DNA of 57,074 nucleotides from Archangium sp. (GTDB taxonomy: Bacteria > Myxococcota > Myxococcia > Myxococcales > Myxococcaceae). Both the position numbers and the translations under genes were made by a program. Under the pieces are notes generated by a model that saw only the letters and a list, made by a program, of their open reading frames with translations, was not told the origin of the DNA and made no database searches. Each line of letters starts with the position of its first letter. The first letter of the stretch is position 1. Of this stretch, positions 16,730-21,683 are shown piece by piece. The stretch covers positions 1 through 57,074 of the forward strand of contig JAUYRZ010000013.1 of the NCBI GenBank assembly GCA_030695565.1. The letters run 5' to 3'.

Positions 16730-17245
16730 TCAGATCTCCGTCTTGCGGTGAGCGATCAACCGCAGCAACCCCTTGATGCCAAAGTGCAGCAGGCCATACG
16801 CCGCCAACGCGATGAGAATGGGCACGGCCAGCGTGAAGCCGCCCGCGCTGGGGCTGGCCACGATGCCGTTGAACATCGCGTAGAACGGGTCGGTGAGCGC
16901 GCGAATGACGCGCACGAAGCCGATGCCGGGGCGCGCCGCGATCAAGGTGAGCACCAGGCGGACACCCAGCAAGCCGTAGAGCACGAAGAAGAGATAGTCG
17001 ATGACCTGGGACACCCGGGCCAACACCCGCGCGCGCCGCACCTCGCGGTCCTTGCCGGCCACCTCGTCGATGGCCTTGCCGCGGAACTGACCTGCCACCT
17101 TGTCCATCTCCTTCGCTTCGGTGGTGGTGGTGAGCTCGGTGCGCGCGGCGATCTTCGCGTTCACGTCGTCGTCGACCTGCGACTTCATCTCGTCGTGGTG
17201 CGCCACGCGGCGGGCTTCGTCTGCGACCAGCGGGTTCTGATTCAT
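16730..17245 (-). CDS. YggT-like membrane protein
   Basis: A 171-residue protein starting at ATG 17245, preceded by a GAAGGG ribosome site. The first 85 residues are hydrophilic and helical. Two pairs of membrane helices follow (about 88-110 and 135-165), and the RPGIGFVRVIRALTDPFYAMFNG stretch between them contains the YggT-family signature (ALTDPFY, with Pro before the helix). YggT proteins are small inner-membrane proteins, and some relate to cell-division or osmotic functions. The N-terminal extension is unusual. It is first in a pair with the PH-like membrane gene. Confidence 0.75.
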   Translation of the reverse strand: MNQNPLVADEARRVAHHDEMKSQVDDDVNAKIAARTELTTTTEAKEMDKVAGQFRGKAIDEVAGKDREVRRARVLARVSQVIDYLFFVLYGLLGVRLVLTLIAARPGIGFVRVIRALTDPFYAMFNGIVASPSAGGFTLAVPILIALAAYGLLHFGIKGLLRLIAHRKTEI

Positions 17246-17426
17246 GAGCCCTTCGCTGAGCACCTTTCGCGCCGCGGGCTGATCCGAGCAAGAGCCGGTG
17301 CTTGAGACCACGCGCCGGCGTTTCGCTCCATCAGGATGGCGGGTACTCCCTCAATTCGACAGAGCGCGCCGCGTGCCTCGATGGGGTGTGGCAGGAATTT
17401 TCCACCAGCGCCTGAGCATCGAGCTT

Positions 17427-17885
17427 CTACAGGGTGCGCTCGGTCCAGTTGGAGCGCCGGCGCCCCTCTTGTTCGCAGAGCAACCGGGCCAGCGTCTCGG
17501 CCAGCACCGAGGAGGCGTCGGCCTCATACGGCGCAGGCGGCGACGACTGCGAGGTCGACACCGGCTGCGGGCCCAGGTTCACCGTCTGAGGGGTCGCCAT
17601 GTTTGCGTTTCGCGCAAAGACATTTCGCAGCTCGATCATCGCGCGGGTGAAGTCGCAGTCCTGCGTGTCGGGCTGCATGATGAACTTGTCGAACTCGAGT
17701 ACGCGCAAGGTATCGAGCTCGCTGGGTTCCCGGTGGTACCGGCTCACCCAGGAGACCAACGCGCCGCTGTTCATGCCGTGGGGAGCGCCGTAGTTCCGCC
17801 GCGCCCAGTCTCCGAAGCTCTCGGCCGTCAGTTCACGCCGCAACATCAGGATGCAGAGTTCACTCATCGCGAGCGTGTTCTTCAT
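17427..17885 (-). CDS. Uncharacterised protein, tandem paralogue A
   Basis: A 152-residue cytoplasmic protein. Its first 100 residues align with the neighbour at 17924-18238 without gaps, at roughly half identity. Shared blocks are (G/S)ELC-LML-R-LT-(E/D)SF, W-RR-YG-P, LDTLRVLEFD and AM-ELRNVFARNAN. The domain looks mainly helical. This copy adds a Pro/Ser/Gln linker and a 50-residue tail ending in ETLARLLCEQEGRRRSNW. There is no signal peptide, membrane segment or catalytic motif that I recognise. The two genes are in the same direction, 38 bases apart, probably one transcript. It could be an adaptor or a signalling domain; no function is claimed. Confidence 0.7.
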   Translation of the reverse strand: MKNTLAMSELCILMLRRELTAESFGDWARRNYGAPHGMNSGALVSWVSRYHREPSELDTLRVLEFDKFIMQPDTQDCDFTRAMIELRNVFARNANMATPQTVNLGPQPVSTSQSSPPAPYEADASSVLAETLARLLCEQEGRRRSNWTERTL

Positions 17886-17923
17886 GAAGCCGCTGCGAAT
17901 TCACGCGATGTGCCACGGGGCGT

Positions 17924-18238
17924 TCACGTGCTCTGACTCTCAGCCGGAGCGATGTTTGCGTTGCGAGCAAACACGTTACGCAGCTCCAGCATGGCGCGCC
18001 TGAAGCCCGAGTCGCGGAGCTCCTGGCCCTGGAGATAGCGGTCGAACTCCAGCACCCGCAACGTGTCGAGGGGGTGCGGTTGCGCATGATGTTTCGCGAC
18101 CAATCGCACCAGCCCTGCGCTGCTCTGGTCTTTGGGCTCCCCGTAATACCGCCGCACCCACCGGGCGAAGCTGTCGGAGGTCAGCTGTCGAAGCAGCATC
18201 AACGTGCACAGTTCGCCCATCGCCGTACGGAATCGCAT
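17924..18238 (-). CDS. Uncharacterised protein, tandem paralogue B
   Basis: A 104-residue protein that is essentially only the domain shared with the downstream paralogue: MGELCTLML near the start, RRYYGEP, LDTLRVLEFDRYL and LELRNVFARNAN at the end. ATG 18238 is used; a second Met at 18220 precedes GELC exactly as in paralogue A, so either may be used. It reads first in the pair. Its 5' end overlaps, on the other strand, the antitoxin-like relic at 18237. The function is unknown. Confidence 0.65.
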   Translation of the reverse strand: MRFRTAMGELCTLMLLRQLTSDSFARWVRRYYGEPKDQSSAGLVRLVAKHHAQPHPLDTLRVLEFDRYLQGQELRDSGFRRAMLELRNVFARNANIAPAESQST

Positions 18239-18486
18239 GGAGCGCCGACTGATTCACGGGGTGTGCCAGCACCCGCTCGAAAGGCTGTACCGGCCGCCCA
18301 GGGTTCACCGGGCGCTGCTGAAGAAGGCCGAAGCGCGAGGGGTGAGTCTGAACACCCTCCTCGTTCAGGCGCTCGAGGCTGGAGCTTCGCGTTCACGACG
18401 ACCTCGACGACCTCTTCGGGAGTTGGGTGCACGACGCAGCCGTCGACAAAGCGCTCGCCGAATCCCGCAACTGCCGCGGGCGTTGA
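18237..18486 (+). pseudogene. Frameshifted ribbon-helix-helix antitoxin-like relic
   Basis: The plus strand from ATG 18237 reads a short odd stretch and then RVHRALLKKAEARGVSLNTL followed by LVQALEAG, a good match to the ribbon-helix-helix end of HicB/Arc-type antitoxins (H-x2-L-x3-A-x3-G-x-SLN). After about 18382 the sense moves to the +1 frame: ELRVHDDLDDLFGSWVHDAA and on to a stop at 18486. DDLDDL-GSWV-D looks like the toxin-binding tail of such antitoxins. The 5' end is degenerate and no toxin gene follows. I judge it a decayed antitoxin rather than an expressed gene. Confidence 0.45.
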
Positions 18487-18487
18487 T

Positions 18488-20632
18488 TCAGGCGTCGAGG
18501 ACCTGACGAACCTTGCGCAGCAGGGCCTCGGGCACGATCGGCTTGGGCAGGAACTCGATGCCGGCATCCAGCACGCCGTGATGCACGATGGTGTTCTCGG
18601 TGTAGCCCGACACGTAGAGCACGCGCATCGCCGGCCGCACGGGCTTGAGCCGCTCCGCCAGTTGCCGCCCGCTCATGTGCGGCATCACCACGTCGGTCAG
18701 CAGCAGGTGAATGGTGGCGGTGAACTGCTCACAGAGGAGGAACGCCTCTCCGCCGTTGGCCGCCTCGAGCACGTTGTAGCCGGCCTTGCGCAGCACCAGC
18801 CGCATCACCTCGCGCACCTGCTCCTGATCTTCCACCAGCAGGACGGTCTCGGTGCCGCGCAAGGTGGTCGAAGGCGCGCTGGGCGCAGCGTGCTGCGTCA
18901 CTTCGCGATCGGTGCGCGGCAGGTAGACCTTGAACGTCGTGCCCACGCCCGGCTCGCTGTAGACCCAGATGTGACCGCCGCTCTGCTTCACGATGCCGTA
19001 CACCGTGGAGAGCCCCAGGCCAGTGCCCTTGCTCTTGTCCTTGGTGGTGAAGAACGGCTCGAAGATGCGGTCCTTCGTCGCGCGATCCATGCCGATGCCC
19101 GTGTCGGTGACGGCCAGCAGCACGTAGGGCCCGGCGGTCACGTCGGCGTGCTCGGCGGCGTAGGCCTCGTCGAGCGCCACGTTGGCGGTCTCCAGGGTCA
19201 CCCGGCCGCCGTGAGGCATCGCGTCTCGCGCGTTGACCACCAGGTTGACGATCACCTGCTCGAGCTGGCCGACGTCGGCGTTCACGTTGCCCGCTTGCTG
19301 CGAGGGCAGCACGGTCAGCTTGATGTTCTCGGTGAGCAGGCGAACCAGCATCTTCTGCACGCCCCCGATGACTTCGTTCAGCGCGAGCACCTCGGGCCTG
19401 AGGATCTGCTTGCGGCTGAAGGCCAACAACTGGCGGGTCAGCTCGGCGGCGCGTTGGCCGGCCTTCTTGATTTCGATCAGATCATCCCGCAGCGGGTCGT
19501 CGGGCTTGAGCTCCTCGATGACGAAGCCCGAGTAGCTGAGGATGACCGAGAGCAGGTTGTTGAAGTCGTGCGCGACGCCACCCGCGAGGCTGCCGACCGC
19601 CTCCATCTTCTGCATCTGGCGCAGCTGGCCCTCGAGCTTCTGCTCGCGCTCATGGGCGGCCTTCTCGGGGGTGATGTCTTGAATCGAGCCCTGCACGTGG
19701 GTGATGGCGCCCGTCACGTCGCGCTCGGCGTTGCCGATGCTGCGAACCCAGAGGCGGTTGCCGCGGGCCGTGATCAGCTGGGCCTCGATGTCGAAAGGCG
19801 TTCCCTCTTCGAGACAGGCTCGCACGCCTTCGCGCACCGGCTCGCGTGACTCGGGCGCGTAGAACTCGATGCCGCTCTCGACCGTGGGCTGCTGGCCCTC
19901 CGGGAGCTCGTGCAGCTCGCGGGTCTCCTCCGACCAGACGACCTTCTGATCGCGCACGCTGACCCGCCAGCCCCCCAGCCGCGCCGTGCGGCCCGCGATG
20001 CGGAGCAATGCGCGGCCTTCACGCAGCGCCTCTTCAGAGCGCGCGCGCCGGGCCACTTCTTCGGTCAGCGTGAGGTTCGAACGCTCCAGCGCCTCGATGA
20101 CCGCGCCGAACGCCAGCACCAGGCACACGTTCACGAAGGTGAAGTTGGCCGTGACCAGCGTCCACCCCGGCAGATCCATGATCCAGCGGGGAGCGACCAT
20201 CTCGGGAGCGGTGATGCCCAGCGCGCCGACGCCCAGCAACGTGAGCGCGTTGAGCACCACCGACGCGAGGCCCCAGCGCAAGCTGAGCAACAGCGTGGCG
20301 AAGAGCGAAAAGGCGAAGAGATAGATCTGGCTGACCGAGCCCACGGTGATCATCAGCCCGGCGCCCAGCATGTAGAAGAGGGTCGAGGTGAAGGCGGCGC
20401 GGGTCTTGAGCGGAATGCGCTCCACCAACCAGAGGGTGATCACCCCGACGATGGCGACGGTGTCGATCACCACCACGCCCCACATGGCGTTGACGTACGC
20501 GAGCCAGACGCTGGGCAGGTAGACCAGGCCGCCCAACACCGCGGTGACTCGCAAGACGACCCGGAGCAAGTCACCCCGCCAGCTCTCGGGGCGCAGACCC
20601 AGCCATCGCTTCTGCCGAGGAGCTTCGCTCAC
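18488..20632 (-). CDS. Membrane PAS hybrid histidine kinase with receiver
   Basis: A 714-residue kinase. GTG 20632 is chosen because GGAGG precedes it at short spacing. Six or so membrane helices lie within about 25-190, then a coiled segment and a PAS domain (about 210-335, with [20 protein letters not shown] and the PAC end VQGSIQDIT). HisKA has His355 in [20 protein letters not shown], the HFNNLL-type box common in PAS kinases. HATPase_c shows [17 protein letters not shown] and [20 protein letters not shown]. The receiver (about 595-714) has VEDQEQVR, Asp in LLTDVVMP and Lys in LPKPI. It is a full HK-receiver hybrid, downstream of the SDR gene in the same direction. Confidence 0.93.
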
Positions 20633-20678
20633 GTCCCTCCAACGGTAGGGGCGAACCGGGCGCGATGCTCGAAGTTCT

Positions 20679-21683
20679 TCAGACCTCGTTGTTGCGCAAC
20701 GAAGCCGCATCGGTGAGCCGGGTGAAGATCCTCGGCATTCGCCGAGACTGTGCGTCTTTGCCCTCCACGCTCTGGTCGCTGCCGCCTTCCGGGCTGGGGA
20801 GCAGCCGGTTGACCACCCCCAACAGGTCCTGCATCAACGAAGGCCCAAAGGCGTACAGGCGGGCCAACAACCGGGCCGGCAGCGAGAGCACCACCTCTGC
20901 GTCGCCCCGCTCGCAGGCGTCGATGATCTGTTTGGCTGCGCGTTCGGCGCTCATGGAGAGGCCCGGCAGGCTGTCGCTCAGCTTGAACCACGCGTACTCG
21001 GCCTCTTGTCGGCCTTTCACCTGCGCGTGCCGCGGGCTCCCGGTGCGCATCAGCCCGGGGCAGACCGTGGTCACTTTGACCCCATCGCGCGCGAGCTCGG
21101 CGCGCAGGCCGGTGGAGAACCCGTAGGCGGCGAACTTGCTGGCGCTGTACGGCAGCAGATGGGGGATGGGCACCTTGGCGCCGATCGAGGTGATGTTCAC
21201 GATGCGGCCCGCGTGGCGCCGGCGCATCTGCGGCAAGACGGCGAAGGTGGCGTAGAGCGGCGCCCAGAAGTGGATGCGCATGGCCGCGTCGTAGTCTTCA
21301 GGGCTCATCAGCTCCAACGGCCCGACCTGGATGACGCCGGCGTTGTTGATCAACACGTCGACCGGCCCGAGCGCCGCCTGAACCTGGGCGAGGAAGTGCG
21401 TGAGCTGATCTCGTTCGGTGACGTCGCAAGCCGCGGCGAACACGGTGCCGCCCCCGGAGGCCAGCTCGGCCCGGGCCTTCTGCACCTCGCTGACGTTGCG
21501 CGAACAGATGGCCACCTCGGCGCCGCGTTCGATCAGCTCGCGCGCGAGCACCAGCCCCAGTCCGCGCGCGCCGCCGGTGACCACCACCACCTTGCCGCGC
21601 AAGTCGTAGCGGGCGAGCCGGGCGATCAATCGTCGGGTGATGACCAATCCAGCGACCAGGCCCGCCAGCGCGCGTTTGTTCAT
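20679..21683 (-). CDS. Short-chain dehydrogenase/reductase
   Basis: A 334-residue classical SDR. The Rossmann motif is TGGARGLG at 36-43, NNAG at 113-116, and the catalytic residues are Ser166, Tyr179 and Lys183 (YSASK). Position 61-62 (Ser-Arg after the second strand) favours NADP(H). A hydrophobic N-terminal segment (about 5-22) and a 60-residue extension after the fold, with a helical stretch [19 protein letters not shown], suggest membrane association, as in SDRs acting on lipids or sterols. The substrate is unknown. The stop is 46 bases before the hybrid kinase start in the same direction. Confidence 0.9.

Follow-up and report, generated by a model that had tools for sequence, protein, structure and literature searches.

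A genus-restricted family of small helical proteins in Archangium, with a tandem bare and tailed pair, as a possible protein-interaction module

Introduction

Taxonomically restricted (ORFan) families of small bacterial proteins are short and fast-evolving. They belong to a single genus and have no recognisable homologue. VapBC and FitAB modules likewise consist of small dispersed genes. Among eukaryotic proteins, the HEAT, CID and VHS-type domains are helical and bind peptides or proteins.

We analysed a stretch of 57,074 nucleotides from Archangium sp. (the window). It carries a tandem pair of small genes resembling the ORFan families in all these respects. We tentatively favour reading them as a cytosolic module for protein interaction that is specific to the genus, in which the pair would probably form a hetero-complex and the tail helix of one copy would dock a partner.

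Results

A tandem pair with a shared core

An earlier note, made from the letters alone, described two adjacent genes in the same direction at 17427-18238. Both open reading frames are there, on the minus strand:

17924..18238, minus strand: bare five-helix domain protein, 104 aa, calculated pI 10.1
17427..17885, minus strand: tailed paralogue, 152 aa, with the core at residues 1 to ~100, a Pro/Ser-rich linker at ~101-122 and a C-terminal helix with SSVLAETLARLL from ~123

The tailed gene lies downstream, after a gap of 38 bases. Some 100 residues of the two proteins can be aligned without a gap, as the note had said; their identity is about 52-54%. A search of the own genome with the bare copy recovers the tailed copy at E 9.6e-31. 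The block ELRNVFARNAN is identical in both copies, and so is LDTLRVLEFD except for its first flanking residues. The linker and C-terminal helix ascribed to one copy are also found, the tail being predicted at low confidence and conserved in two other species.

Coding status and age of the duplication

The GC content by codon position is 0.59/0.49/0.88 in the tailed frame and 0.65/0.45/0.80 in the bare frame. Between the two copies, pN/pS is 0.304/0.643. Both minus-strand frames are therefore genes, given the GC3 values of 0.88 and 0.80 and the excess of pS over pN. In an overlapping plus-strand frame (17298-17936), GC3 reaches only 0.59. A non-coding or wrong-strand artefact is ruled out by these values. 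Across the family copies, selection at the protein level is purifying. The synonymous divergence of the core is ordinary, which rules out an additional conserved DNA signal within it.

The pair had been described as recently duplicated. This does not hold. The duplication is old, since synonymous sites are near saturation (dS ~1.5) and genes from two further species carry the same kind of tail.

No described family

Family membership was accepted on a profile match over the curated cut-off, or on convincing E-values for at least two members. Pfam, NCBIfam, PHROGs and PADLOC gave neither. More precisely, Pfam has no family for either protein. NCBIfam returned one sub-threshold match (E 0.12), to IS66 TnpA; it is rejected as under the cut-off and missing from the other members. 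PHROGs gave one weak match (E 0.0027), to a single member, the G005 copy with a doubtful N-terminus. PADLOC likewise gave one weak match (E 0.0048), to a single member. There was no significant match among PDB sequences, and a literature search found nothing on the family. The earlier reader, to whom no family had come to mind, was thus right.

Pfam and NCBIfam detect neither a toxin domain nor an antitoxin DNA-binding domain in the two paralogues, which sets them apart from type II toxin-antitoxin pairs. Since the family alignments contain no invariant or near-invariant histidine, we also reject an HPt phosphotransfer protein.

Distribution and relationships

A profile was built from eight family copies and used for the searches. 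The copies come from four of the six genomes of the genus: three from the window's own genome (G000), three from G003, and one each from G004 and G005. The third G000 copy lies on contig C117. No member was found in the two other genomes of the genus, which are incomplete. The same profile found none in other genera, among 96 genomes of the taxonomic family and 195 of the phylum. When about 85,000 species genomes were scanned, the sole match was to a contig from "Myxococcales bacterium isolate Bin_62_4", presumably the G004 contig itself. Weak matches in G056, G052 and G000:C26, and further sub-threshold ones, fall in other large frames or contain stops. They were left out of the count. Within the collections searched, the family is an orphan confined to one genus. 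The phage, plasmid and viral-contig collections searched hold no member, and a phage or plasmid gene is rejected on this result.

The tree has three groups. One holds both window copies and the G004 copy, another C117 and G003:C10, and the last G005 and G003:C5. Support is full only for the last; the window copies and G004 form an open fork. All eight members are small stand-alone frames.

Recurrence of the pair and conservation of the tail

The tailed and untailed arrangement is borne out in a second species. At G003:C5, a short member (~75 aa from ATG) precedes a tailed member, the same order as in the window. The stop and start codons of this pair overlap (TGATG), and the overlap suggests translational coupling. 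The third helix is missing from the short member, and the N-terminus of the tailed one is divergent; the halves are therefore rearranged. In G005, homology to this locus starts only ~36 bases upstream of the second start codon; the first gene has therefore been lost or replaced.

The window tail was compared with other tails by shuffling. None of 1000 shuffles reaches the score against the G003 tail, and 1 of 1000 reaches it against the G004 tail. The similarity centres on the VLAExLxRLL helix, and the linker has diverged between species. The C117 tail has no significant similarity to that of the window in this comparison, and there is no tail in G003:C10 or in the bare copies.

Genomic neighbourhood and insertion sites

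Three features flank the pair:

18488..20710, minus strand: hybrid sensor histidine kinase, MASE11-PAS-HisKA-HATPase-REC, immediately upstream of the pair and on the same strand
18270..18487, plus strand: FitA/VapB-type (HicB-like) RHH antitoxin relic, frameshifted, between kinase and pair and not part of the pair; it marks a variable site
16730..17311, minus strand: YGGT-like membrane protein, downstream of the pair, a sub-threshold Pfam match

It had been stated that no neighbour suggests a role. The kinase corrects this, although as a neighbour it is weak evidence. Its MASE11 part is a membrane domain, and the kinase has five further strong matches in its own genome. Its G003 orthologue (73% identity) adjoins a family gene at its 3' end. 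There, the kinase and the family gene are convergent. The DNA similarity does not extend past the kinase gene; the family gene beyond it is inverted relative to the window. Such a kinase adjoins a family gene at two of the six loci and is missing from the other four.

The relic matches the HicB family (E 2e-4) in its first frame and continues as DDLFGSWVHDAAVDKALAE in the next. At G004:C667 (L056), an intact relative lies beside a PIN toxin. The G003 relative of the YGGT-like protein is located elsewhere, so the downstream side is not conserved. No sigma-70-type promoter or terminator was seen near the pair, which is uninformative in a GC-rich genome.

The remaining copies have other neighbours. 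The C117 copy lies between RecJ and a hydrolase, and the G003:C5 copies lie beside an FHA-sigma54 activator and an RdgC-like gene. The G004 neighbour reads like pgsA by eye (not by profile), and the G005 neighbour is a glycosyltransferase. Two dispersed copies thus adjoin recombination genes, RdgC-like and RecJ (L012 8760-9380, L016 7709-9469), possibly by chance. A protein with two near-identical DUF1554 repeats (L011 1878-3149, minus strand) adjoins the G003:C10 copy. The RecJ-hydrolase interval is a conserved location, but its gene content differs per species (L067 3312-4991, L068 3586-5242), as in a variable insertion site: in G000 it contains a family gene, whereas G003 and G005 have different genes there. 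Since the copies occupy variable sites, inference from neighbours is weakened, and this includes the kinase. A transposon-like element with shared ends is ruled out. Apart from a common dispersed 39-bp repeat, there is no flanking similarity outside the genes.

The main rival to an interaction module arises from this pattern. The copies could be cargo of genomic conflict that evolves fast and spreads among variable intergenic sites of the genus, in the form of small proteins of antitoxin, immunity or anti-phage type. Their unrelated loci, the changing content of the RecJ-hydrolase interval and the decayed VapB-type antitoxin beside the window pair would fit. So would the narrow distribution, the high divergence and the rearranged halves in G003 and G005. 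However, no toxin, effector, integrase or transposase was seen adjoining the copies, PADLOC and the phage, plasmid and viral-contig collections gave no meaningful match, and the flanking sequence beyond the genes is not shared. We consider this reading unlikely, though it keeps some weight.

Predicted structure and charge

The model of the core has five helices, at 2-15, 21-32, 40-50, 58-71 and 77-93 (pLDDT 85.5, pTM 0.76). The model of the whole tailed protein is moderate (pLDDT 68), with the linker and terminal helix at low confidence. The sequence has no hydrophobic stretch of the transmembrane type. In a Foldseek search with the core model, no match had an E-value below 1 (best 1.1). The best fold match is the Spiral2 C-terminal domain (VIA Z 5.5, 2.5 A over 77 residues), which is within the background for helical folds. 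Neither PDB nor BFVD offers a convincing known fold.

The cores of the window pair have calculated pI values of 10.1 (bare) and 6.1, and those of the G003 pair 4.1 and 9.9. The cores are thus of opposite calculated charge within each pair, which fits hetero-partners, although two pairs are too few for a claim.

Small DNA-binding regulators were also weighed. The core would then be a divergent domain of the helix-turn-helix (HTH) type and the tail an oligomerisation helix. The size of the all-helical core would indeed suit such a domain, the bare copy in the window is basic, and the best profile matches among PDB sequences are to the regulator Rot, though these are not significant (E 0.7-0.8). 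Nevertheless, most family copies are acidic or neutral by calculated pI. Pfam and NCBIfam give no HTH family, and HTH proteins do not rank at the top of the fold searches. This explanation seems to us improbable.

Discussion

An interaction module as the favoured reading

Protein-protein interaction is the most likely role of the domain, because it is small, soluble and helical, its bare and tailed forms are encoded together, and the conserved tail resembles a docking element. The two copies would probably be translated from one transcript. The conserved core may be the part by which the bare and tailed proteins bind each other. The tailed copy could then use its flexible linker and its conserved VLAExLxRLL helix to dock on a third protein. 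One candidate for this third protein is the hybrid histidine kinase next to the pair, a possible partner that is weakly supported.

We counted for the interaction module the purifying selection, the confident core model, the tail conservation, the pair order, the opposite charge and the adjoining orthologous kinases. Against it, we counted that no homologue has a known function and that no fold match is significant. The kinase adjacency is, moreover, inverted between species and missing at four loci, and the tail is not in all copies.

The earlier note had proposed an adaptor pair, or a signalling module whose tail recruits a target. The small soluble helical domain, the conserved tail helix and the kinase neighbour in two species are compatible with this proposal. 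On the other hand, the domain is not fused to a kinase, peptidase or nuclease in any of the 195 phylum genomes, and the kinase orientation is opposite in the two species. Adaptors are not always fused to other domains.

A bolder version can be imagined. A new five-helix interaction domain would have been born, or have radically diverged, in one Myxococcales genus. Its bare and tailed hetero-pair, with co-evolving opposite charge, would link hybrid histidine kinases with a partner that the tail helix captures. We hold this version to be very improbable. Least probable of all is a dedicated component of the MASE11-PAS hybrid kinase, for instance one that partners its receiver domain in phosphotransfer or output: orthologous kinases adjoin in two species, on the same strand as the pair in the window, but the missing conserved histidine, the inverted orientation in G003 and the four of six loci with no such kinase speak against it.

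Comparison with known systems

This is a clean example of a small protein family that is apparently folded, under selection and duplicated, and that is limited to a single uncultured genus. As a test bed, it could show how new domains originate and how they specialise into bare and tailed partners.

The VapBC and FitAB modules share its dispersed small genes, and a relic of their antitoxin type adjoins the window pair. However, neither protein of the pair contains an RHH or a PIN domain. The predicted five-helix arrangement has a weak partial likeness to the HEAT, CID and VHS-type domains. Examples are the Spiral2 C-terminal domain and the RPRD1B CID (VIA Z 5.5 and 3.9 over 77-79 residues). 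Unlike these eukaryotic families, which share no sequence similarity with it and score within the helical background, the domain is bacterial. In kind, the family resembles the ORFan families. In contrast to a typical one, this family has several paralogues per genome, a recurrent bare and tailed tandem pair and a confident predicted fold.
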